Of a stretch of 64,000 nucleotides of DNA, positions 32,812-44,540 are shown piece after piece. The notes under the pieces are model-generated. The model was not told where the DNA came from. It made no database searches and was given only the letters and a program-made list of their open reading frames with translations. The number at the start of each line of letters is the position of its first letter. Within the stretch, counting starts at the first letter, position 1. This DNA comes from Nitrospirota bacterium (GTDB lineage: Bacteria > Nitrospirota > Nitrospiria > SBBL01 > JAADHI01), in the NCBI GenBank assembly GCA_029261195.1, contig JAJDBU010000025.1, positions 1 to 64,000 of the forward strand, read 5' to 3'. Position numbers and translations under genes: made by a program.

Positions 32812-33753
32812 CTATTTTACCAATCGAAAGTCATCTATTCGGATGACTTTCGATGCTTTCATTTCCATCACAAACAGTTGAAATTCCACAATGTCACTTA
32901 GATCCATCTCTCTAGTCGCTGGCGCTTGAATCACCTCAGCAAGATCAAGACTGATGTGATTCAAGCCAGGTGACAGCAGAAATATTGTATTAAATCGATC
33001 ATTGTAGCGTTTTTTAGACCTTGAGTGCTGACGATCATGAATCCGGAAGAGTATTTTAAACGTTTCTGAAGTCGTGTTATCGATGCTAAATCTTAGTTCA
33101 CGATAACCCTGCCAGTTATTCGGGAAAAATTTCAAAGAAAGCCCTGAATACTTTGAAGTCCCCAACGTGACTTTTAAGGAAGATTCTCCGCTGACCGGGG
33201 AGTCCTTGTCGATTTCAAACCTGGCGCTCCCAGTCCATCTGGAAACTTCAATTGAACTTTCAAAATCAGCAAGTACTGGAAACGCTCGTGCAGCAATGAC
33301 TTCGTCAGTCAGTGACACGGCAAGGGGGAAAAGTTCAATCAATACAAGTAAAATTATGATGTACTGTACTATCCTTAAATTTAATTTTGTGGGCGCTTTT
33401 TTTGTCGGATTGAAAAAGAAAAGACCCATGAGGGATCCAATGAGATTTCTCCAAAGATCACCGAAATCCGGCATTCGATTAAACCCGTATTGGACAAGCT
33501 CAATAACAATTCCGAGTACCAGGGTGAAAATAATAATCCGGCGCAATTGAGCCAATAAAGACTTCTTCGAAAATTGATTATTTCTGGAGATAAACAGGTG
33601 AGTCAAAATCGCAAAAAATAATATATGCCCCATGTTCCAGGCATGGTTAAAAGAACGACCGGAGTCGTAACCTGGGCCTCCAACAAAAAAGAAAACAAAT
33701 AAAACCGAAGCAAACGGAAATAAGACCCATTTTATTTTGTTATGCCCTGCCAT
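32812..33753 (-). CDS. VanZ-like membrane protein with C-terminal beta-sandwich domain
   Basis: The N-terminal half of this 313-residue protein has about four transmembrane segments with the VanZ-like features NHAWNMGHILFFAILTH and the acidic IELVQ and FGDLWRNLIGSLMG motifs. From about residue 155 it continues as a soluble domain with beta strands (FESSIEVSRWTGSARFEID, then SLKFFPNNWQGYRELRFSID) that resembles carbohydrate-binding jelly-roll modules. VanZ relatives affect glycopeptide resistance or cell-envelope lipids, but the family role is poorly known. The fused domain would sit outside the cytoplasm and might bind glycan. It stands alone between two plus-strand operons. Confidence 0.75.
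   Translation of the reverse strand: MAGHNKIKWVLFPFASVLFVFFFVGGPGYDSGRSFNHAWNMGHILFFAILTHLFISRNNQFSKKSLLAQLRRIIIFTLVLGIVIELVQYGFNRMPDFGDLWRNLIGSLMGLFFFNPTKKAPTKLNLRIVQYIIILLVLIELFPLAVSLTDEVIAARAFPVLADFESSIEVSRWTGSARFEIDKDSPVSGESSLKVTLGTSKYSGLSLKFFPNNWQGYRELRFSIDNTTSETFKILFRIHDRQHSRSKKRYNDRFNTIFLLSPGLNHISLDLAEVIQAPATREMDLSDIVEFQLFVMEMKASKVIRIDDFRLVK
32824..32853. terminator. 12-bp perfect hairpin inside the 3' end of the VanZ-like gene
   Basis: TCGAAAGTCATC (32824-32835) and its exact complement (32842-32853) flank a 6-base loop. It lies 64 bases past the stop codon of the plus-strand M16 operon and within the last codons of the convergent VanZ-like gene. It is a candidate shared terminator; the downstream plus-strand sequence is T-rich but has no long T-run. 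Confidence 0.45.
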
Positions 33754-33925: not shown

Positions 33926-34876
33926 ATGATGTTACACCGACTAAAACTGAAGGTGATTTACGGTGATCCGCTCCAACAGGACAAAGCCGCTAAACGACTC
34001 AAATTACGGGTGATCCTGATCGCCGGATTTGCTGTTTTTGTGCCTTTTCTTGCTGTCACTTATCTCTTGTGGGCTGAAAACCGGGTGATGAAGCTGCTCT
34101 TTATCGGCTTCCTCTCGGCGCTTGCCTGTGTCCCTGTCGTGCTCTATGCCTATTCACAAGGTTTCGGAAAGCCGCTCAAAGCACTGTGGAAAGAACGGCC
34201 TGAAGAATTGAAGTGGCTTTCCCTGAAGATCGGTTTTCTGTATGGATTTGCGCTCTATTGGATGATTTTAGGGATTGTCGAATTCCTCTTTGGGTACCAG
34301 TCCTTCCGCGCCGCCCTCATCAGTTTTGTCGCTTCCGCCGCTGCACGAGACGGTTTTGAGATCGGCTACCTCCGGGGTTTGAAAAATGCGAAACCTTCTC
34401 TTATAAAGATCTTTCCCGACAACCGGAGATTAAGTGAAATGTTTCCGGTCTCGGGGCAGAAGCTAATGCTTCTCCTTTCCTCAGCCCTGATTGGGGGCGT
34501 AGTGATTGGCTCATTTTTAGGACCGCTCCTGGTCAAACCACAACATCAAGTACTTGTAGCCGGTTTAATCATCGGAGGTCTCACAACCTTCTCATACGCC
34601 TGGACGATGAAAACAGCCCCAACGATTCGAGCCCTGATAAAGTATTTTATCTGGCCGGGTTTTACGATGTCCGTGACCTATTTTTTGATCCTGGCCTACC
34701 TGCTTCGGATCATCTTTCAGCTTAAGCTAAGCCCTGCTGTCGATTTCGCTATCTTGTTATCTGCAAGCGCTGCATGGCTCACCCTTGAATCCGTCTTTAT
34801 GGCTTATCTTCAACAGGGGAAAACCCCTCTCATCGCCCCTCTGACAATAAATAAGGAATTGAACGCGACCTCTTAG
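33926..34876 (+). CDS. Unknown multi-pass membrane protein at the head of the MlaA-MlaC-RND operon
   Basis: I do not recognise the family. The 316-residue product has about seven to eight hydrophobic segments (near residues 30-50, 55-75, 100-125, 180-200, 210-228, 240-265, 275-295), with a basic N-terminus (MMLHRLKLKVIYG) suggesting that it faces the cytoplasm. Charged patches such as FEIGYLRGLKNAKP lie between segments. There are no obvious catalytic motifs. It is 28 bases upstream of mlaA and apparently cotranscribed, so it is a candidate inner-membrane partner of the lipid-transport proteins; that role is inference. The second ATG (33929) is an equally good start. Confidence 0.7.
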   Translation: MMLHRLKLKVIYGDPLQQDKAAKRLKLRVILIAGFAVFVPFLAVTYLLWAENRVMKLLFIGFLSALACVPVVLYAYSQGFGKPLKALWKERPEELKWLSLKIGFLYGFALYWMILGIVEFLFGYQSFRAALISFVASAAARDGFEIGYLRGLKNAKPSLIKIFPDNRRLSEMFPVSGQKLMLLLSSALIGGVVIGSFLGPLLVKPQHQVLVAGLIIGGLTTFSYAWTMKTAPTIRALIKYFIWPGFTMSVTYFLILAYLLRIIFQLKLSPAVDFAILLSASAAWLTLESVFMAYLQQGKTPLIAPLTINKELNATS

Positions 34877-34904
34877 CACACCTGAATAGGGCCTTAATTT
34901 TATC

Positions 34905-35750
34905 TTGATCAGCCGATCCCCTCTCATCTTACTTAGCCTCTTCTCACTCTTCATGATTTCGTGCGCGGGAGTCGATCAGTCCCGCGTCACAGAAGGGACA
35001 GAAGGTAACCTTGAGGCAGAATCGCTCCCTCCTGCCGATCAAGACCCCGTTTCAGATCAAGATCACTTTTCAAATCAAAATCCCGTTTCCAATAAAGAAG
35101 ACGAGTTCGGAGAATTAGAAGACGAGTTTGCAGCGGTCGAAGCCGAACCGGTTTTTGACCCCCTTTCAGGCTATAACAGGGGCATGACACAATTTAATGA
35201 CGGTTTTTTTGACTGGGTTGTTTACCCGGTGTCAGAGGGATATAAATTGATACTTCCGAAGGGAGGTCGAATTGCCATCAACCGTTTTTTTAAAAATCTC
35301 TTTTTCCCCATTCGTTTTGCAAACAATGTCTTACAGCTCAAATACGACAAGGCCGCCATCGAAACAGGCCGTTTTATTGTCAACAGCACGGTCGGCCTGC
35401 TCGGTTTTTTTGATCCGGCGGAATCATGGCTTCAACTGAAACCGCATCCGGAAGATTTCGGACAGACCCTCGGATTTTACGGGGTCGGCAGCGGTTTTCA
35501 CATCGTCCTCCCCTTCCTCGGGCCGTCCAACTTAAGAGATTTAGTCGGTAAAGTACCCGACATCTATGCCACCCCGCTGACCTATCTGGATCCTGTAGAA
35601 GCCGCTTATGCAGCAGAAACGCATCGCAGGCTCAACGACGCATCAATTCGCCTGGGTGAATATCAGAGCCTGCGAAAAGACGCACTTGATCTCTATACCT
35701 TTTTACGCGATGCTTATGAACGCAATCGTAAAGCAGAAATAGAGGAGTAA
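34905..35750 (+). CDS. mlaA: MlaA (VacJ) outer-membrane lipoprotein
   Basis: The 281-residue protein starts with TTG and has a lipoprotein signal ending in MISC (Cys20). Residues about 85-275 form the MlaA domain, with DPLSGYNRGMTQFNDGFFDW, RFFKNLFFPIRFANNVLQ and PHPEDFGQTLGFYGVGSGF as characteristic stretches. MlaA forms a ring in the outer membrane that removes misplaced phospholipids from the outer leaflet. Between the lipid anchor and the domain is a long acidic linker (about 21-85) with imperfect repeats of DQDPVS/DQDHFS/NQNPVS and a DEFGELEDEF motif at 66-75. Its partner mlaC follows after three bases. Confidence 0.93.
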   Translation: MISRSPLILLSLFSLFMISCAGVDQSRVTEGTEGNLEAESLPPADQDPVSDQDHFSNQNPVSNKEDEFGELEDEFAAVEAEPVFDPLSGYNRGMTQFNDGFFDWVVYPVSEGYKLILPKGGRIAINRFFKNLFFPIRFANNVLQLKYDKAAIETGRFIVNSTVGLLGFFDPAESWLQLKPHPEDFGQTLGFYGVGSGFHIVLPFLGPSNLRDLVGKVPDIYATPLTYLDPVEAAYAAETHRRLNDASIRLGEYQSLRKDALDLYTFLRDAYERNRKAEIEE

Positions 35751-35753
35751 CCG

Positions 35754-36338
35754 ATGAAAACCTGGATATTGATTTTCTTAAGCCTCAGCTTGTTCTCAAG
35801 CACGGTCTTCGCAGACGAGCTCTCTGAGGTCGATCACTTTATGAAGGAAAAACTCAGCACCGTCATGAAGGTACTCGAAAACAAATCCCTTTCAAAAGAA
35901 CAGCGGGATGCAGCCGTGCTGGTACAAATTAATGCGGCTTTTGATTTTAACAAAATGGCAAAGCTGACCCTCGGCAGAAAATATTGGCCCGGGCTTTCTA
36001 CAACGGAACAAACACGCTTTACAAGCCTCTTCATCCAACGCATGCAAGCCTCCTATCTGGAAAAACTCGACCTCTACACCGATGAACAGATCGCCTACAA
36101 TCCCCCAATCCGTGTCAATAAAAATGTCCATATGCTGACCGAACTGGTCTCTGGGGACAATCACATTTCAATGCGCTACAAACTTTACAAATCAAAAGAA
36201 TCGGGCTGGCGCGTTTATGATATCGAACTCGAAGGCGTTAGCATCATCACCACCTATCGTTCTCAGTTTTATGAAGTGCTGGACAAGGGAACGATAAACG
36301 ACCTACTCAACAAGCTGGAACAAGCGGACGGGATGTAG
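35754..36338 (+). CDS. mlaC: MlaC/Ttg2D-type periplasmic phospholipid carrier
   Basis: The 194-residue protein has a signal peptide (ILIFLSLSLFSSTVFA) and the MlaC fold: AFDFNKMAKLTLGRKYW, LSTTEQTRFTSLFIQRMQ and GWRVYDIELEGVSIITTYRS near the C-terminus. MlaC carries phospholipid between outer-membrane MlaA and an inner-membrane complex. Here the usual MlaFEDB transporter genes are absent and an RND protein follows 26 bases downstream. The same family also includes HpnM, which is encoded beside the RND protein HpnN in hopanoid loci, so a hopanoid-related role is an alternative. Confidence 0.9.
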   Translation: MKTWILIFLSLSLFSSTVFADELSEVDHFMKEKLSTVMKVLENKSLSKEQRDAAVLVQINAAFDFNKMAKLTLGRKYWPGLSTTEQTRFTSLFIQRMQASYLEKLDLYTDEQIAYNPPIRVNKNVHMLTELVSGDNHISMRYKLYKSKESGWRVYDIELEGVSIITTYRSQFYEVLDKGTINDLLNKLEQADGM

Positions 36339-36364
36339 CCAGCCCATCCTTACCTGCATGCCGA

Positions 36365-38908
36365 ATGAAAACCTCCCGATCCTACAGCGCAAATCTGTTT
36401 GACAAAGTCGTCCTCGGACGACCCCGGCTCATTTTATTTCTTATCCTCATTGCGGTCTCGTTTCTGGGAACTCAGGCGAAGAAATTCAAGCTTGACGCCT
36501 CGGCAGACACCTTAATTCTGGAAGATGATGAAGACCTTCAAAATACCCGGACAGTCGTCAGTCGCTACGGGGAACAGGACTTTGTGGTGGTCACCTATCA
36601 TCCGAAGTCCGACCTTTTTGACAAAGTCACTCTTGAGCATATCGACAATCTTCAGTCTGATTTAGCCGAAATTCGCAGTATTGAACGTGTGACTTCTTTG
36701 CTCGATATGCCTCTGCTTGAAAGCCCGAAGATTCCAATCAAACAACTCGCCACCAAAGTCATCACCCTCAGATCATCTGAAGTCGATAAAAAACTCGCCC
36801 GGATTGAGTTTAAAAATAGCCCGATCTATCACAATCTGGTCGTCAGCCCCGATCTGAGTACAACAGCAATCCAAGTTGTTTTCCCCGCCGACACGAAAGG
36901 AAACGACCTGCTCAAACGCCGAATCCAATTTAGAAAAAAGGAGCGGGAAGGCACGCTGAGTCCATCCGAAAAAATCGAGTATGCCGGGGTTCGCGCCGCA
37001 CTGAGCCAACATAATGAAACAATGAAGCAGCTTCGCCATGAAAATATCGCCGCAATCAGGGCGGTCATGGATCGCTATCGTTCTGATGCAGAACTTTTCT
37101 TAGGGGGCGTCAGTATGGTGACCGATGACCTCATTACCTTTATCAAAAGCGACCTCAAACTTTTCGGAATCGGCGTTCTTTTTTTTCTAATTATTACACT
37201 CAAACTGATTTTCAAAAACCTGCGCTGGATTGTCATCCCGCTAAGCTGCTGTTTCCTGGCAACACTCGCCATGGTGGGTTTCCTGGGATTTTTCGGATGG
37301 GAAGTCACTGTGATCTCCTCGAATTTCATTTCCCTGCAATTAATTATTACCATGGCAATCACCATCCACCTGATTGTCCGTTACCTGGAACTTGCGGAGG
37401 CGAACCCTAAGGCCTCCAACCGGGAAATCATACTGGAAACTGTCGCTTCGATGTTCAAACCCTGTCTCTACGCCGCTCTCACAACCATTGCCGGTTTTGC
37501 TTCTCTGGTGCTTTCCAACATCCTGCCCGTCATCAATTTCGGTTGGATGATGATTGCAGGCATTTCCGTCTCCCTATTGCTTACATTTTTGATTTTTCCC
37601 ATCGCCCTGAGTTTTTTCGAAAAAGTCGAGAAACAAAAATCGAGTCACAAGGTCTTTCCCTTGACTTCGATCCTGGCCCGATTTACAGAACATCGCGGTC
37701 CCTTGATCATCGTCATCAGCATCGGAGCCCTTGTCTTTGGTCTCACTGGCATCATGCGCCTGGTCGTTGAAAACAGTTTTATTGATTATTTCAAAAAATC
37801 CACTGAGATTTATCAAGGCATGAAACTCATTGACCAAACGCTTGGCGGGACCACACCGCTCGATGTGACGATTGACTTTGGAGAGCCGAAAGAAAACAAA
37901 ACCGATTCAGTTGAGACAGCGGGATCATCAGACGAAGCAGACACATTCGATGAAGGAGACGAATTCGGTGACTTTGACGAATTTGAAGAAGAGGGAGATG
38001 CCGATAAATATTGGTTTACAAGTGACAAAATGGCCCGAATCAAAGCCATCAACGACTATCTAGATGCCATCCCTGAAACAGGCAAAGTACTCTCCTTAGG
38101 GACAATGCTGAAGGTCGCCGAAAAATTGAACGATGGCAAACCGCTCGATAACTTTAAGCTCGCCTTACTCTACAGTGAACTACCGGCAGACATGAGAACC
38201 CTCGTTCTCGACCCCTATGTTTCCGTTGAGCACGATCAGGCTCGTTTTTCGATCCGGGTGAGAGACTCCGAAAAGACCCTCAAACGAGACGAGCTCTTAA
38301 AAAAAATTCGTTACGATTTGATCAATCAATTTGGATTCAAAGAAGAACATGTCCATTTAACCGGTATGCTCGTTTTGTACAACAACATGCTGCAAAGCCT
38401 TTTTGATTCTCAGATCAAAACTTTGGGGCTGGCCGTGGCCGCCCTCATCTTTATGTTCCTCATTCTTTTTAGGTCCTTCAAACTAAGTCTCATTGCAATT
38501 ACGCCCAACCTGCTTTCCATCGGTATCGTACTCGGGGTCATGGGTTGGGCAGGGATTCCCCTCGACATGATGACAATCACCATTGCCGCCATCAGCGTCG
38601 GGATCGCCGTCGATGATACGATCCACTACATCCATCGATTTAAACATGAATTTGAGGTGGACAGGAATTACATGGCGGCAATGCATCGCTGCCACGAGAG
38701 CATCGGACAGGCGATGTACTACACCTCGGTCACGATCATTATCGGTTTTTCCATCCTGTGCCTCTCCAACTTTATCCCGAGCATCTACTTCGGTTTATTG
38801 ACCGGCCTGGCTATGTTCATCGCCCTGATCGCCGCCATGACCCTCTTGCCGCAATTGATTATCCTGATCAAACCGCTGGGACCGGAAGTAGAGTTAAAAC
38901 AGAAGTAG
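36365..38908 (+). CDS. RND/MMPL-superfamily lipid transporter-like protein (HpnN-like)
   Basis: The 847-residue protein has the RND layout: one TM at about 22-38, a periplasmic domain (40-260), a six-TM block (264-420, including the sterol-sensing-like stretch), a TM at about 445-465, a second periplasmic domain (470-685) and a final TM block (690-840) with VGIAVDDTIHYIHRFKHEF. Total is the 12 TMs expected. It is single-subunit with no nearby membrane-fusion or TolC partner, which points to lipid transport rather than drug efflux. An acidic insert at 521-548 contains DEFGDFDEF. With mlaA and mlaC upstream it may replace the Mla ABC transporter; inference. Confidence 0.85.
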   Translation: MKTSRSYSANLFDKVVLGRPRLILFLILIAVSFLGTQAKKFKLDASADTLILEDDEDLQNTRTVVSRYGEQDFVVVTYHPKSDLFDKVTLEHIDNLQSDLAEIRSIERVTSLLDMPLLESPKIPIKQLATKVITLRSSEVDKKLARIEFKNSPIYHNLVVSPDLSTTAIQVVFPADTKGNDLLKRRIQFRKKEREGTLSPSEKIEYAGVRAALSQHNETMKQLRHENIAAIRAVMDRYRSDAELFLGGVSMVTDDLITFIKSDLKLFGIGVLFFLIITLKLIFKNLRWIVIPLSCCFLATLAMVGFLGFFGWEVTVISSNFISLQLIITMAITIHLIVRYLELAEANPKASNREIILETVASMFKPCLYAALTTIAGFASLVLSNILPVINFGWMMIAGISVSLLLTFLIFPIALSFFEKVEKQKSSHKVFPLTSILARFTEHRGPLIIVISIGALVFGLTGIMRLVVENSFIDYFKKSTEIYQGMKLIDQTLGGTTPLDVTIDFGEPKENKTDSVETAGSSDEADTFDEGDEFGDFDEFEEEGDADKYWFTSDKMARIKAINDYLDAIPETGKVLSLGTMLKVAEKLNDGKPLDNFKLALLYSELPADMRTLVLDPYVSVEHDQARFSIRVRDSEKTLKRDELLKKIRYDLINQFGFKEEHVHLTGMLVLYNNMLQSLFDSQIKTLGLAVAALIFMFLILFRSFKLSLIAITPNLLSIGIVLGVMGWAGIPLDMMTITIAAISVGIAVDDTIHYIHRFKHEFEVDRNYMAAMHRCHESIGQAMYYTSVTIIIGFSILCLSNFIPSIYFGLLTGLAMFIALIAAMTLLPQLIILIKPLGPEVELKQK

Positions 38909-38930: not shown

Positions 38931-39515
38931 ATGACAACAGAGAACACTGACAGAAACAGATTACTCGCACTGCTTATAAAAAAGTCCTTTCGCTACAGCG
39001 CGGAGGAGGCCTTTCAACTCACCTCCGGCAAAAAAACCGCTTATTACATCGATTGCAAAAAAGTTTCGCTAGACCCTGAAGGGGCCTATCTCATCGGAAA
39101 AGAAATTTTTGAGCGGATAGCTCATCTGCATGCAGAGGGTGTCGGTGGCATGACACTCGGCGCCGACCCTATCGCAACATCCGTTTCGCTCGTCAGTTTT
39201 TTAAATAAAAAATCAATCCCCGCCTTCATCGTCAGGAAAGAAGCCAAAGCACACGGAAGCCGCCAGCAGGTTGAAGGATCTTTAAAAACAGGGGCGAAGG
39301 TGGTGGTTGTCGAAGATGTCGTGACGACCGGGGGATCAACACTCCGAACGATAGAAGCCCTACAACGGGAGGGTTATGGCATTTTGAAAGTGATTGCCTT
39401 AGTTGATCGGAAGGAAGGCGGTGCGGAGCGGATTCTCAAAACCGGTGCGCCTTTTGAGAGTTTGTTTTGTATTGAGGATTTTATGCGACAAAGAGCAAAA
39501 ACGACCTCGGATTAA
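38931..39515 (+). CDS. pyrE: Orotate phosphoribosyltransferase
   Basis: The 194-residue product has SGKKTAYYIDCKKVSL near the N-terminus, the flexible-loop KEAKAHG with catalytic lysine, and the PRPP-binding motif VVVVEDVVTTGGST at about 125-138. It converts orotate and PRPP to OMP in pyrimidine synthesis. The ATG at 38931 is chosen over one at 38919 because GGGAG lies five bases before it. It follows the RND gene by 22 bases, and its TAA stop shares bases with that of convergent fliT (TTAA at 39512-39515). Confidence 0.93.
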   Translation: MTTENTDRNRLLALLIKKSFRYSAEEAFQLTSGKKTAYYIDCKKVSLDPEGAYLIGKEIFERIAHLHAEGVGGMTLGADPIATSVSLVSFLNKKSIPAFIVRKEAKAHGSRQQVEGSLKTGAKVVVVEDVVTTGGSTLRTIEALQREGYGILKVIALVDRKEGGAERILKTGAPFESLFCIEDFMRQRAKTTSD

Positions 39516-39838
39516 ACCGTTTGAGCACCATAAGCCTGCATGATTTTCCGCTCTTCCGCACCGCCCTTTTGAAGTTTATCTATCCGTTGTTTTATTAAAG
39601 CCTGTGTTCGCCTACTTACCCTCAGAATTCGATTGATTAGCTCCGCTTTGCGGTCCGAGGATTTTGCCGCAAGAGGCTGCCGGTCATTCATCTCCTTTAA
39701 GCAGAAATACATCTCATAATGTTGCTGCTCAAGTGCGACAACATTCTCCCACTCCTCATCTTCGGCCTCTTTGAGCATCTTTTCAGAAACAGCACAGAGC
39801 GATTCATAAAGACTCATCTCATCTAGCATCTCACTCAA
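39512..39838 (-). CDS. fliT: FliT-like flagellar export chaperone
   Basis: This small (108 residues) all-helical charged protein lies directly downstream of fliS and fliD. FliT chaperones FliD and in enterobacteria also inhibits FlhDC. Sequence similarity is weak, as usual for FliT; the call relies on size, helical pattern (MSLYESLCAVSEKMLKEAED, then IKQRIDKLQ) and position. It ends the filament operon and converges on pyrE. Confidence 0.65.
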   Translation of the reverse strand: MSEMLDEMSLYESLCAVSEKMLKEAEDEEWENVVALEQQHYEMYFCLKEMNDRQPLAAKSSDRKAELINRILRVSRRTQALIKQRIDKLQKGGAEERKIMQAYGAQTV

Positions 39839-39855
39839 TTCCTTTATCCCTCCTC

Positions 39856-40293
39856 TTAAACCGCCTTTGCGATTGCGCCCGCCATTGATCGACGACCCGG
39901 ATGATTTTCCGAAATTACTGAGATCTCTGTCCAGGCATCCCTTAAACCAGTGAGAAGATTTTCAATCTCCTCCAATCCTTCCTGGCTATTTTCTACATTC
40001 GCTTGAAGCAAGCTTCTAGTCATATAATCATAGAGCGCTTCGAGATTCCTCGAAATTTCGCCACCGACTTCATGGTTGAGACTTCCTGATAGCTCGCCAA
40101 GAATCGCAAGGGCCTTAGAGATGGACTGGCCCTTTTCAGCAATATTCTGCATCCGGGTATGTTCCTGGGCTGCCCAAATGGCCTTGAGTGCGCCATCGTA
40201 TAACATTCGGACCAAGTTCTCCGGCGTGGCAGTCGCGACCTTACTTGAAAGATCAACCTGGGCATAGGTACTATAACTTCCGATCTGAACCAT
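39856..40293 (-). CDS. fliS: Flagellin export chaperone FliS
   Basis: The 145-residue protein shows the FliS pattern: an N-terminal YSTYAQVDLSSKVATATPENL, VRMLYDGALKAI, and the helix containing LEALYDYMTRSLLQANVEN. It binds the C-terminus of flagellin and prevents early assembly in the cytoplasm. The ATG at 40293 is preferred over an upstream ATG at 40335 because GGGGGAG precedes it at the right distance and family members start with this segment. It lies 57 bases downstream of fliD. Confidence 0.93.
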   Translation of the reverse strand: MVQIGSYSTYAQVDLSSKVATATPENLVRMLYDGALKAIWAAQEHTRMQNIAEKGQSISKALAILGELSGSLNHEVGGEISRNLEALYDYMTRSLLQANVENSQEGLEEIENLLTGLRDAWTEISVISENHPGRRSMAGAIAKAV

Positions 40294-40350
40294 GAGTTCT
40301 CCCCCTCCAAAGTGCTTAATATTTTGAAATCGCAATGAAGCCTTGTTTTG

Positions 40351-42372
40351 CTAACTCCCCAGTCCGGAGTTAGCAAGTTTATTTAAATTAGCCAGTTGTG
40401 TGGTCAGAAAAGTACTGGTCGTCTGCATCCCGCTCAAAAGGACATCCAGTGCGGTAAATTGTTTGCGGAAACGCGCTTCGATATCAAGGAGACGTTTATT
40501 CAATACGTCACGCTGATCATCCAAATCGTCAATACGACGATCCAAACCGTCTGTGCGACTGGTAATCGGACCGGTAGCCCCGAGAAACTCATCGGCCAAC
40601 TTGTTTAACTGAAAAGCATAGCCTTGAGAATAGTCGACTGTCCCCCGGCTGCCTGTCACTCCTCCGATGATCTGAACCTTGATGCCTTCCGCACCGCTCC
40701 CTGTCACACCGGTCAGAAACTGCCCCGATCCAGTGGCACTCACATTGTTGATCGTTCCGACCACATCGACCCCGTCGGTCTTTGTCGCACTTGCCCCTAA
40801 TAGGTTTGTCTTTCCGTTTCCTCCGCTCACATCCACTTTTGAAACCGAGCCATAGGTTTTTGAGCTGAGCGTGAAAATACCAGATGCCTGTGACACTGCC
40901 ACAGAAATACCTTTTGTAGATAAGGTGTTTAGGCCGTTGATCTTCGATAGTACCTCTGCCACAAGGGCATCGGAATCGGCATAGGTCCCTGCCGCAAGGG
41001 TAATCGCAACACTCTCCCCGTCTATCGTAAGATTCAGTGTGTCGTTCGTCCCCGTTGTAATCGTCAACCCTGCCGCTGCGCTGCCGACCGTTTTCCCCTG
41101 CGTTGCCAGAGTAGTGACTGATACCGCATAGCTGCCCGGCTTGGATTTGCTGGTGGCGCTGTTAAATTTCACCAGGCTGTCGGAAGGTTTGCCCATGTCG
41201 GCAAAAAGGCCGGCGATGTCATTAAAGTTATTGTCAATCGCCGTCTGAAGTTTGCTCGAATCAAGGGCCAGCCTGCCATCTTTTTGAAAGGCAACACCGA
41301 TATCGGACAATTTTGTCAATGCACCGCCCAAGGACGAAATGGAACCCCCGACAGTCCGCCGTAGCCGGTTTTGTATCAAATTTGTGGAGCTATCGCCCTG
41401 TAGTAGACCTGAAATTTTCGTTGTGGCATCGAAGGCGGTCAAATTATCCATGACCTTGTTGACCTCGTTATAGGCGCTCACAAAGGCAGAGACAGACTGA
41501 CTCACAGCTGCACTGTCTTTTGTAACCGTCAGGGTTGCCGGACTGCCGCTATTGGTTTTAAGCAAATTCAGGGTGATCCCTTGAATGGCATCGGTGACGG
41601 TATTGCTTGACTTGTTGATAGAAATACCATCGACTTTAAATGCGGCATCCTGTGCGGTCACGGTCTGAGAGAGGTTCTGAGTACCGGCCGGATCATGTGC
41701 GATCAGGTTTGACAATGCGGTATCGCCACTGACCGTAATCTTCATGCTGTTTTTCAGACCTGTATTGTCAGAGCTTAAAGAGAGACGGTTCGGGCTAGCA
41801 CTGCCATCATTCACAATAGAGGCAGTGATCCCGATTTTTGCTGTGTTGATCGCATCGCGAATGCCTGTCAGCGAGTTATTGCTGCTGTCGATGGTCACTG
41901 TTTTACTGCCGAAGGCGTTGCCGGTAAAGGTCGACCCAGTATATTTCCCTGTTCCCGAATCAAAGCTTCCGCCGCTGACCGTTCCGAAGTCGAAGGTAAG
42001 TGTGCCGTTTCCGATAGCGCTGGTCGTATTCAACTGGCCTACGGCGGCTAGTTTTTGGGCTTGTGCGAGCTGAGTCACTTCCAGGGAATAGCTCCCTGCA
42101 TGTGCTGTCGATACGGCTGAGGCGGTGAAGATCGTTTTATCGGAGGGCGTTGCAACCAGACTCTGAAATTTCGAGAGGCTACTGAGACTCTTCACCGATG
42201 TCTGGAATGAAGAAACAGCCCCTTTCAGGCTGCCATAGGCGCTCAGCCTAGCCTGAAAGGCCGCCTCTTTTCCATTCAATAAAGTTAAGGGCCGACTCTC
42301 AAACTCCATCAATGAGGTGATGATCCCATTAACGTCGAGGTTCGATCCGATTCCTGATGCAGCGAGTCCCAT
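40351..42372 (-). CDS. fliD: Flagellar filament cap protein FliD (HAP2)
   Basis: This 673-residue protein starts GLAASGIGSNLDVNGIITSL, the conserved FliD N-terminus, and ends in the coiled-coil C-terminal domain (DGLDRRIDDLDDQRDVL through TQLANLNKLAN). The middle (about 100-600) is variable, threonine- and serine-rich and includes two flagellin-hook-IN-like repeats. It forms the cap at the filament tip that folds incoming flagellin. It is longer than the common 450-500 residues because of the enlarged middle domains. It lies between flaG and fliS. Confidence 0.95.
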   Translation of the reverse strand: MGLAASGIGSNLDVNGIITSLMEFESRPLTLLNGKEAAFQARLSAYGSLKGAVSSFQTSVKSLSSLSKFQSLVATPSDKTIFTASAVSTAHAGSYSLEVTQLAQAQKLAAVGQLNTTSAIGNGTLTFDFGTVSGGSFDSGTGKYTGSTFTGNAFGSKTVTIDSSNNSLTGIRDAINTAKIGITASIVNDGSASPNRLSLSSDNTGLKNSMKITVSGDTALSNLIAHDPAGTQNLSQTVTAQDAAFKVDGISINKSSNTVTDAIQGITLNLLKTNSGSPATLTVTKDSAAVSQSVSAFVSAYNEVNKVMDNLTAFDATTKISGLLQGDSSTNLIQNRLRRTVGGSISSLGGALTKLSDIGVAFQKDGRLALDSSKLQTAIDNNFNDIAGLFADMGKPSDSLVKFNSATSKSKPGSYAVSVTTLATQGKTVGSAAAGLTITTGTNDTLNLTIDGESVAITLAAGTYADSDALVAEVLSKINGLNTLSTKGISVAVSQASGIFTLSSKTYGSVSKVDVSGGNGKTNLLGASATKTDGVDVVGTINNVSATGSGQFLTGVTGSGAEGIKVQIIGGVTGSRGTVDYSQGYAFQLNKLADEFLGATGPITSRTDGLDRRIDDLDDQRDVLNKRLLDIEARFRKQFTALDVLLSGMQTTSTFLTTQLANLNKLANSGLGS

Positions 42373-42400
42373 ATGACCTCATTCTAATGATTTGTACATT

Positions 42401-42457
42401 TCCCTTCGACTTCGCTCAGTGAACCGGACCTCTGCCACCTGAGCGAAGTCGAAGGGA
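42401..42457. repeat. 19-bp perfect inverted repeat between flaG and fliD
   Basis: Arms 42401-42419 and 42439-42457 are exact reverse complements (core CTTCGACTTCGCTCAG) with a 19-base loop. This sequence type, with the GAGCGAAGTCGAAG core, is a palindrome known from intergenic regions of many unrelated bacterial genomes. On the plus strand it is followed after about 12 bases by seven T residues. It could stop or stabilise transcripts in the filament operon. Confidence 0.8.
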
Positions 42458-42528
42458 CGCTTCAGGCTTTTTTTACGCTTGAACCCTGAACTATTTCACT
42501 AACGTCGTATTAAGCAATTTCAATGCCC

Positions 42529-42906
42529 TTAGGCCAGAACGCTCAGGATCGCGCTCATTTGACTTTCTAAATTGCGTGCAAGTGAAAGCACTTCTTCAGT
42601 GGGGATCTGACGGACCACCTCATCGGTGTCTGTGTTAATCACCCTGATTACGGTACGATTTGATGCTTCATCCACACTAAAATTCAGGCTACGCTGATAG
42701 CTCGTGGCAAATTCATTCAATTTTTTGACCGTCTGCTTAAGCGCTTCGCTGGTTACCGGAAGTGTTTCCCGTTGTTGCTCAACAGGTGGCATTTTTTGCC
42801 CTTCAAGCGACGAACCGGGCAAATTTTTCAGGCCTTCGTTCGGCGGTCTGGCAGCTGAACTGCTCACCACAGCAGTGGACTGAGGGATTGCATTGATCGG
42901 AGTCAT
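42529..42906 (-). CDS. flaG: FlaG family protein
   Basis: The 125-residue protein has the FlaG C-terminal domain: NFSVDEASNRTVIRVINTDT followed by VRQIPTEEVLSLARNLESQM. The first 55 residues are disordered and proline-rich. FlaG affects filament length in several bacteria and is commonly placed between flagellin and fliD, as here. GGGAGG precedes the ATG. Confidence 0.9.
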   Translation of the reverse strand: MTPINAIPQSTAVVSSSAARPPNEGLKNLPGSSLEGQKMPPVEQQRETLPVTSEALKQTVKKLNEFATSYQRSLNFSVDEASNRTVIRVINTDTDEVVRQIPTEEVLSLARNLESQMSAILSVLA

Positions 42907-42916
42907 TTTCTACCTC

Positions 42917-42933
42917 CCATTTCAATGAAATGG
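42917..42933 (-). promoter_or_regulatory. Small palindrome abutting the flaG ribosome binding site
   Basis: CCATTTC/GAAATGG with a 3-base centre lies immediately before the flaG ribosome binding site and just after the GC-rich hairpin. Pairing could affect access of ribosomes to GGGAGG. Short and unproven. Confidence 0.25.
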
Positions 42934-42963
42934 CGCACGGGGGAGCTTGTCCCCCGGTGCGCC
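42932..42963 (-). terminator. GC-rich hairpin after flagellin gene
   Basis: A stem of about 13 bp with one bulged base (42932-42944 with 42950-42963) and a 5-base loop lies 33 bases downstream of the flagellin stop. It probably ends or attenuates the abundant flagellin transcript before flaG. There is no T-run beyond ATTTCATT on the minus strand. Confidence 0.6.
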
Positions 42964-42995
42964 TTCATTCTTACATTATCCTGAATGACTTTCCC

Positions 42996-44459
42996 TTACT
43001 GGAGAAGCGACAGGATGGACTGCGGCAAAGAATTAGCCTGTGACAACATCGCAATACCCGCCTGTTGCAGGATCTGTCCACGCGTCAAAGCTGCCGTTTC
43101 TTTGGCAAAATCGGCGTCCTGAATCCGGCTTCTTGATGCCGAGAGATTTTCCGTACTCGTCTGAATGCTGGCAACCGTGGATGAAAAACGGTTCTGAATC
43201 GCTCCCAGGCTCCCCCGGATACTGTTCACGGTCGACAAGGCCGCGTCAAGCACAGCAATCGCGCTTTGAGCCCCGGTATCTGTAGAGATATCCATACTCG
43301 ATACGGACGAGAGCGTACTCGTATTGGTTCCGGCGGATGCGAAAACGTCCGCTCCCGCGTTCGCGGTGGTGATCTGCCCCTGGGTACTGGAAAGCTTCAC
43401 TGTACCGGCTTTGATTGAGGAGTCAACAACACCGCCACCCGTCACAGTCACACCGGAGAAAGCGACAGTTTTGGTGGTTCCGGCATGGGTAAAGTCCAAT
43501 AGATCGATATCTCGCCCATCTGAGGTAGTCAGGGTGAGCGAGTCTTTTGCGGTACTGGAAGTGAAGCTCGCGGTAATTCCGGTGGCCCCGGTCACGCCAT
43601 TGATTGCCGATAGCACTGTCGAGAGATCCCCGGTATTCGCTATTGTCGCCGCGACCGCAGAGCCATTGAGGGTCATGGTGATCGCACCCGTGGAAACCAC
43701 GCCGCTCAGTGTCGCGGTGTTTGTTGCAGTGGCGGTGATGCCAATGCCACCTGCAGCCGTGTTGATGGCGCTGGCGATAGCATCAGCGCCTGCATCCGCC
43801 GCGTAAGAGATGGCAGTTGTCGTGCCACCATCAACCGTCGTGAGCGTCAGGTCGGCTTCGATAACAACGTTATTTCCAGCGCTTACATCGGCTGCCGCTG
43901 CTGAGGTACTCCCGAGTATCGTTCCGTCCAAGGTCATATCATGGCTGCCAAGCGCCGTGGAACGGGCGTCGCTGATCTGAGAGATTGAGATGGTCTGATT
44001 GGCATCGGCTCCAACCTGGAATTTCTGGGTTGCAAAGGTCCCGTCCAGCAGGGTAATGCCGTTAAATGCCGTCTGGTCGCCGACACGGGTGATTTCCGCG
44101 ACCAACTCCGTGACCTCTGCCTGTAGTGAGGCACGGTCCGAGGCGCTGTTCGTTGCGTTGGCTGACTGAACCGAAAGTTCACGAAGCCGCTGCAAGTTAT
44201 TCACTGTTTCTTCCAAGGCTCCCTCTGCGGTCTGGGCGAGGGAGATGCCATCGTTGGCATTTCGGGCAGCCTGATTCAAGCCCCGGATCTGAGAGGTAAA
44301 ACGCGTGGCGATAGCTATTCCCGCCGCATCATCCCTCGCACTGTTCAGCCTCAAACCAGAGGATAGACGTTGCAGGGACTGCGCCAGAGCGCCGCCAGAT
44401 TTATTGAGGTTTCTTTGTGCATTCAAAGATGGAAGGTTTACATTAATTGATAGTGCCAT
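42996..44459 (-). CDS. fliC: Flagellin
   Basis: The 487-residue protein has the canonical D0/D1 ends: SINVNLPSLNAQRNLNKSGG and LSSGLRLNSARDDAAGIAIA at the N-terminus, and SRIQDADFAKETAALTRGQI with SLPQSILSLLQ at the C-terminus. Between about 175 and 395 lies a variable exposed D2/D3 region rich in alanine, threonine and glycine. It is exported and polymerised into the filament. The ATG at 44459 is used because GGAGGA precedes it; the longer frame from 44504 has no support. It is driven by a sigma-28 promoter and followed by a strong hairpin. Confidence 0.97.
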   Translation of the reverse strand: MALSINVNLPSLNAQRNLNKSGGALAQSLQRLSSGLRLNSARDDAAGIAIATRFTSQIRGLNQAARNANDGISLAQTAEGALEETVNNLQRLRELSVQSANATNSASDRASLQAEVTELVAEITRVGDQTAFNGITLLDGTFATQKFQVGADANQTISISQISDARSTALGSHDMTLDGTILGSTSAAAADVSAGNNVVIEADLTLTTVDGGTTTAISYAADAGADAIASAINTAAGGIGITATATNTATLSGVVSTGAITMTLNGSAVAATIANTGDLSTVLSAINGVTGATGITASFTSSTAKDSLTLTTSDGRDIDLLDFTHAGTTKTVAFSGVTVTGGGVVDSSIKAGTVKLSSTQGQITTANAGADVFASAGTNTSTLSSVSSMDISTDTGAQSAIAVLDAALSTVNSIRGSLGAIQNRFSSTVASIQTSTENLSASRSRIQDADFAKETAALTRGQILQQAGIAMLSQANSLPQSILSLLQ

Positions 44460-44500
44460 GATTCTTTTCCTCCGTGATGTAGGTTTAGAGCATCCGTGCC

Positions 44501-44540
44501 CCATTGTTGTGAGCGCTTTGTTCGCTCATGCTTACAATGG
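44501..44540 (-). promoter_or_regulatory. Stem-loop in the flagellin 5' leader
   Basis: Outer arms 44501-44507/44534-44540 (7 bp) and inner arms 44510-44515/44523-44528 (6 bp) form an interrupted hairpin inside the leader between the sigma-28 promoter and the flagellin start. It could stabilise the message or be a regulatory binding site (for example CsrA); there is no direct evidence for either. Confidence 0.5.

Follow-up and report, generated by a model that had tools for sequence, protein, structure and literature searches.

The MlaA, MlaC and RND proteins encoded side by side in a Nitrospirota genome probably form a single inter-membrane lipid-transfer route, in which a proton-driven RND protein replaces MlaFEDB and docks with MlaC through a segment with the core F..F.EF; we hold this reading with moderate confidence. 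By the tests made, the unit works like HpnM-HpnN plus MlaA, yet it is neither a member of the HpnM-HpnN systems nor a complete Mla system. The proposed replacement of MlaFEDB is limited to lineages lacking MCE proteins; in other phyla the module often coexists with them. MlaA and MlaC are usually regarded as accessory to an MCE/ABC transporter.

The window, a stretch of 64,000 nucleotides (positions 1 to 64,000 of contig JAJDBU010000025.1, here C18, of assembly GCA_029261195.1), belongs to a genome of 3.04 Mb in 77 contigs that is 99.07% complete. Its closest named relatives were Nitrospirota MAGs, such as OFTM211, OFTM308, and OFTM336, and a Candidatus Manganitrophaceae MAG.

Gene organization of the module

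An earlier note on this DNA had described a unit of four closely spaced genes, encoding an uncharacterized membrane protein, MlaA, MlaC, and a 12-TM RND protein. All four ORFs were found on the plus strand between positions 33926 and 38908, and the identities of the last three were borne out by matches to Pfam models and by hydropathy. The mlaA gene (34905..35750, plus strand) has a TTG start and encodes an outer-membrane lipoprotein of 281 aa that matched PF04333 with an E value of 3.5e-65 (219.8 bits; cut-off 25); its signal sequence, read by eye, ends in a lipobox-like MISC|A. The mlaC gene (35754..36338, plus strand) encodes a periplasmic lipid-carrier protein of 194 aa matching PF05494 (E 5.7e-37; 127.5 bits, cut-off 26). 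The predicted structure of this protein (pLDDT 86) resembled E. coli MlaC (5uwa) with a TM score of 0.77, and lipid-bound homologs were also matched. The window genome has one MlaA and one MlaC. The third gene (36365..38908, plus strand) encodes an RND/MMPL inner-membrane protein of 847 aa with 12 hydrophobic segments and two periplasmic domains, which matched PF03176 (E 1.9e-31; 109.7 bits, cut-off 20.5). Only 3 bases separate mlaA from mlaC and 26 bases separate mlaC from the RND gene, and the unit contains no lipid-synthesis gene.

The window MlaA has a short C terminus without the tail of the E. coli protein. This was considered as a sign of altered docking and rejected, since the same C terminus is found in unlinked MlaA proteins of class members containing MCE proteins.

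The grouping into a four-gene unit held for mlaA, mlaC, and the RND gene, which are tightly spaced and conserved, but not for the first gene (33926..34876, plus strand). Its product, a multi-pass membrane protein of 316 aa, belongs to no Pfam or NCBIfam family, and no known structure matched its all-helical model (pLDDT 68) significantly (best E 0.91). A profile of the protein matched 131 of 396 Nitrospirota genomes, and the matches included genomes of families f2, f3, and f4 in which MlaA, MlaC, and an ortholog of this RND protein are all absent. The gene adjoins an M16 peptidase gene in f2 and in relatives within the host family, and in the relative G030 it lies on contig C75, with MlaA on C38. 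Because of this class-wide distribution in Nitrospiria and its position beside M16 peptidase genes, the membrane protein was rejected as a member of the module. The linkage to M16 peptidase genes was observed in families f1 and f2. In the window genome, a VanZ-like gene (32812-33753, minus strand) lies between the peptidase gene and the membrane-protein gene, and it was not seen in the relatives examined. Downstream of the module are genes on the minus strand (39512-44504) whose translations, judged by eye, are FliS-, FliD-, FlaG-, and flagellin-like. Scans for promoters and terminators gave results close to those expected from shuffled sequence.

Remnants of the MCE transporter in the host

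That no mlaD, mlaE or mlaF lies near the module, as the earlier note had stated, was confirmed. As assembled, the window genome encodes no MCE protein (PF02470), and its sole MlaE (PF02405), intact at 265 aa, is encoded on another contig (C57). At this locus (L003:7212-8885 in genome G000), mlaE is preceded by a gene for a STAS protein (mlaB) and followed by a truncated mlaF, whose product of 153 aa stops just past the signature ISGGM. The contig runs on beyond the end of mlaF through a YjeF_N gene and a Gcw_chp gene. A complete mlaFEDB set elsewhere, for which the earlier note had proposed a search, was not found in the genome; mlaB, mlaE, and half of mlaF were all that turned up, with no MCE protein.

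The relative G030 carries a full operon (L089:7345-10968) with the order mlaB-mlaE-mlaF (280 aa)-mlaD (340 aa), together with a gene for an ABC_trans_aux-like lipoprotein; the operon has no mlaC. The next gene looks, by eye, like the transporter gene found after this region in the window genome, too. The window genome has thus lost mlaD as well as the second half of mlaF, barring an assembly error at this point. Among the eight members of the host family sampled, including the window genome, all had one MlaA, one MlaC, and the RND protein; MCE proteins were absent from six and MlaE from five, at 90–99% completeness, and the two with an MCE protein were G030 and G034. Since the module is present in every member and MCE and MlaE are missing from most, the proposed MCE replacement does not depend on the C57 locus.

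Distribution and conservation

The order MlaA-MlaC-RND is kept within the host family, with identities of 53–58% for MlaC and 70–72% for the RND protein, and another genome of the class (G002) shares it. Among 117 sampled class members, an ortholog of the RND protein (E < 1e-200) was detected in 15 of the 18 genomes without MCE proteins versus 9 of the 99 containing them; because all 15 come from either the host family or a single genus of family f13 (which we take to be Leptospirillaceae), just two lineages are represented, and the association is suggestive but not proof. The f13 ortholog of the RND protein has no mlaC next to its gene.

The earlier note had suggested mapping the co-occurrence of the genes across phyla, and linkage of MlaC with the RND protein, often together with MlaA, was found to recur in Desulfobacteria, other 'Deltaproteobacteria', and Verrucomicrobiota. 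Two 'Deltaproteobacteria' MAGs have the order MlaC-RND-MlaA, and a verrucomicrobial MAG has MlaA-MlaC-RND. Of 192 genomes from the class to which a Desulfobacterales genome belongs, 65 had the RND protein (E < 1e-100). At 30 RND loci examined from Desulfobacteria, MlaC was encoded within 1.5 kb at 27 and MlaA at 20, lying upstream or downstream of the RND gene in varying orders. Such constant membership combined with varying order is good evidence for joint function. Solitary genes of this RND family, with no mlaA or mlaC nearby, were found at L085:6104-8611 (G008) and at the f13 loci L078, L080-L082, and L094-L097.

An MCE protein was present in five of the seven module hosts examined outside Nitrospirota, and strict exclusion of MCE proteins by the module was therefore ruled out. 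The Desulfobacterales genome G118 encodes an MCE-linked MlaC alongside one linked to the RND protein, indicating that the two systems can coexist. The proposal that an RND protein stands in place of the ABC transporter is thus supported by gene content and co-conservation, but for some lineages only, given the MCE proteins in these five hosts and in two of the eight family members. No description of an MlaA-MlaC-RND unit was found in the open literature searched; a fitness paper on Desulfovibrio concerns a conventional mla operon.

A separate MlaC clade and a candidate docking segment

RND-linked MlaC proteins, including that of the window, formed one clade, distinct from both HpnM and MCE-linked MlaC (support 96/88; 98% of bootstraps). 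In E. coli numbering, position 76 is Leu in 38/38 RND-linked proteins versus Arg in 13/13 MCE-linked ones, position 153 is Lys (38/38) versus Arg (12/13), and position 155 is Tyr (35/38) versus mostly Leu or Ile, a contrast in the docking face that is weakened by the MCE-linked set being mostly one family. Tyr105, Asp165, Gly170, and Ser172 are common to both sets. In E. coli, a single cleft of MlaC serves both the tail of MlaA and the acidic β6-β7 loop of MlaD, which is bound in this basic cleft with F118 and L123 (PMC10245069, PMC11289387).

The second periplasmic domain of the RND protein contains a variable, strongly acidic linker around a fixed F..F.EF core. Alignment placed this core in the window protein at residues 534–540 (FGDFDEF; 37964..37984, plus strand), the proposed MlaC docking segment. 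The core was present in 33 of 34 mlaC-adjacent RND proteins (two of the 34 being from one genome) versus 4 of 14 non-adjacent ones (Fisher p 1.5e-6), a correlation that reflects about two independent losses and, corrected for descent, amounts to approximately 4 independent comparisons with no power. Shuffled linkers would be expected to contain it in 0.28 of 34 cases. It was missing from all eight f13 RND proteins and from a second lineage (L151 and L152), both unlinked from mlaC. In f13, the linker core instead takes forms such as FDDPF, and the RND protein may have another partner there. By analogy with E. coli, the F..F.EF segment is proposed to play the part of the MlaD β6-β7 loop.

A candidate proton-coupling residue, Asp750 (codon at 38612..38614, plus strand), lies in a TM10-like helix (GIAVDDTIHY) and was invariant in 22/22 aligned RND proteins. 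No acidic residue occupies the equivalent place in the TM4-like helix of the N-terminal half. Proton coupling of the RND protein is suggested by one conserved Asp.

Hopanoid transport as a precedent

The window RND protein scored 93.5 bits against the HpnN model (TIGR03480), with a cut-off of 751.85, and the window MlaC 74.7 bits against the HpnM model (TIGR03481), with a cut-off of 160.1. The RND protein was also far below the cut-off of the HAE3 model and did not match the BstA model (NF045600) at E 0.01. No squalene-hopene cyclase (PF13243) was detected in the window genome, and squalene-hopene and oxidosqualene cyclases were absent from the host family apart from one stray 25-bit match in G030. 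A hopanoid or sterol function in the host was therefore ruled out, and export of such lipids does not explain the module here. Export of hopanoids only by the RND protein, which in the earlier note would have spoken against its proposal, was likewise not borne out.

In f13 genomes, mlaA lies beside genes for a true HpnN (918 bits) and for HpnM (203 bits), as identified with the HpnN and HpnM models at L100:2342-6502, L101:4639-8970, and L102:2807-7084. The MlaA at these loci has a longer acidic C-terminal tail, unlike RND-linked MlaA. In kind, the module has no closer relative than this trio: in HpnM-HpnN, too, a periplasmic protein of the MlaC family is encoded together with a similarly sized MMPL/RND protein, which provides a precedent for the pairing, and f13 adds MlaA. 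The window unit differs in that its proteins fall far below both cut-offs, that HpnN and the window-type RND form separate clades, and that the host has no hopanoid cyclase.

Proposed mechanism and alternative explanations

In the reading that we favour, MlaA would be the outer-membrane station of the route and MlaC the lipid ferry across the periplasm. The RND protein would be the inner-membrane station, swapping lipid with MlaC and powered by the proton gradient rather than by ATP. Its acidic F..F.EF segment may dock in the basic MlaC cleft, a step modelled on the acidic MlaD loop of E. coli. Support for the RND protein as the MlaC partner comes from the cross-phylum linkage, the separate MlaC clade, and the motif tracking linkage to mlaC. 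The cargo may be glycerophospholipid moving in the retrograde direction, from the outer to the inner membrane, a slight lean over export that draws on the parallels of Mla and of NPC2, which hands over to the RND-fold protein NPC1.

Export of a special lipid from the inner to the outer membrane, as by HpnM-HpnN for hopanoids, would differ from this reading mainly in cargo and direction. MlaA would then be the outer-membrane acceptor, and the cargo would be a non-phospholipid or a polycyclic lipid from another synthesis route. Characterized lipid-handling RND proteins with soluble partners, HpnN and BstA, are exporters (PMC10942540), and HpnN-HpnM beside MlaA in f13 makes the set of parts compatible with export. 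Nevertheless, we regard this explanation as rather unlikely in view of the missing cyclases in the host family, the low scores against the HpnN and HpnM models, and the lack of a lipid-synthesis gene in the unit.

Linkage could also exist without partnership, MlaA and MlaC being a pair of their own or having an unrecognized partner, perhaps the leftover MlaE, and the RND protein having a separate role. The solitary occurrence of the RND family and the intact MlaE of the window genome would fit. We nevertheless consider it improbable: five family members have MlaA-MlaC-RND yet no MlaE, mlaC stays by the RND gene across differing orders and phyla, and the RND-linked MlaC proteins form one clade. 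Very improbable, in our judgement, is an ordinary Mla system with a neighbouring RND gene, its MCE machinery missed through assembly gaps. The window genome, a 77-contig assembly, does retain mlaB, mlaE, and part of mlaF, and G030 and G034 hold an MCE protein, but six family members lack MCE proteins and five lack MlaE in genomes of high completeness, and the window-genome contig continues through other genes past mlaF. In addition, the G030 operon includes a gene for an ABC_trans_aux-like lipoprotein but lacks mlaC, as would suit an MCE system of another type.

With the lipid-transfer route as the preferred reading, a broader proposal can be made tentatively: that one family of proton-driven RND proteins, spanning several phyla, replaced the MCE/ABC transporter as the inner-membrane partner of MlaC, keeping outer-membrane lipid asymmetry in MCE-less lineages such as the host family. 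If this is true, the MlaA-MlaC shuttle can run with a different motor, which would be relevant to the dispute over the direction of Mla transport, to outer-membrane upkeep in non-model diderms, and to lipid movement by RND proteins, and the docking motif would offer a compact target for mutation. The pairing in several phyla suggests a second, little-noticed inter-membrane lipid route.

Comparison with other lipid-transfer systems

The module shares with the Mla system (MlaA, MlaC, and MlaFEDB) the MlaA and MlaC families and the predicted MlaC fold. It differs in that the window genome has no MCE protein, a truncated MlaF, and MlaE elsewhere, and in that an RND protein is encoded instead. BstA-BstB-BstC is similar in that an inner-membrane RND protein has two partners, one in the periplasm and the other in the periplasm or the outer membrane (PMC10942540). 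However, BstB, which is listed in a phosphonate-binding family (PMC10942540), and BstC are unrelated to MlaC and MlaA, the window RND protein has no BstA match, and the host has no sterol cyclase. The minimal MlaEFD of Veillonella is a similar case of Mla parts being lost piecemeal outside model species, but as a mirror image: MCE and ABC components are kept there without MlaA and MlaC, whereas the window genome keeps MlaA and MlaC and has lost MCE (PMC10665443). In that study, MlaEFD is regarded as the ancestral core and MlaABC as later additions (PMC10665443).

In Nitrospira-type genomes such as G001 (family f6; L106:4901-10593), mlaE-mlaF-mlaD-mlaC adjoins a gene for squalene-hopene cyclase, placing an MCE-type Mla operon in a hopanoid neighbourhood.
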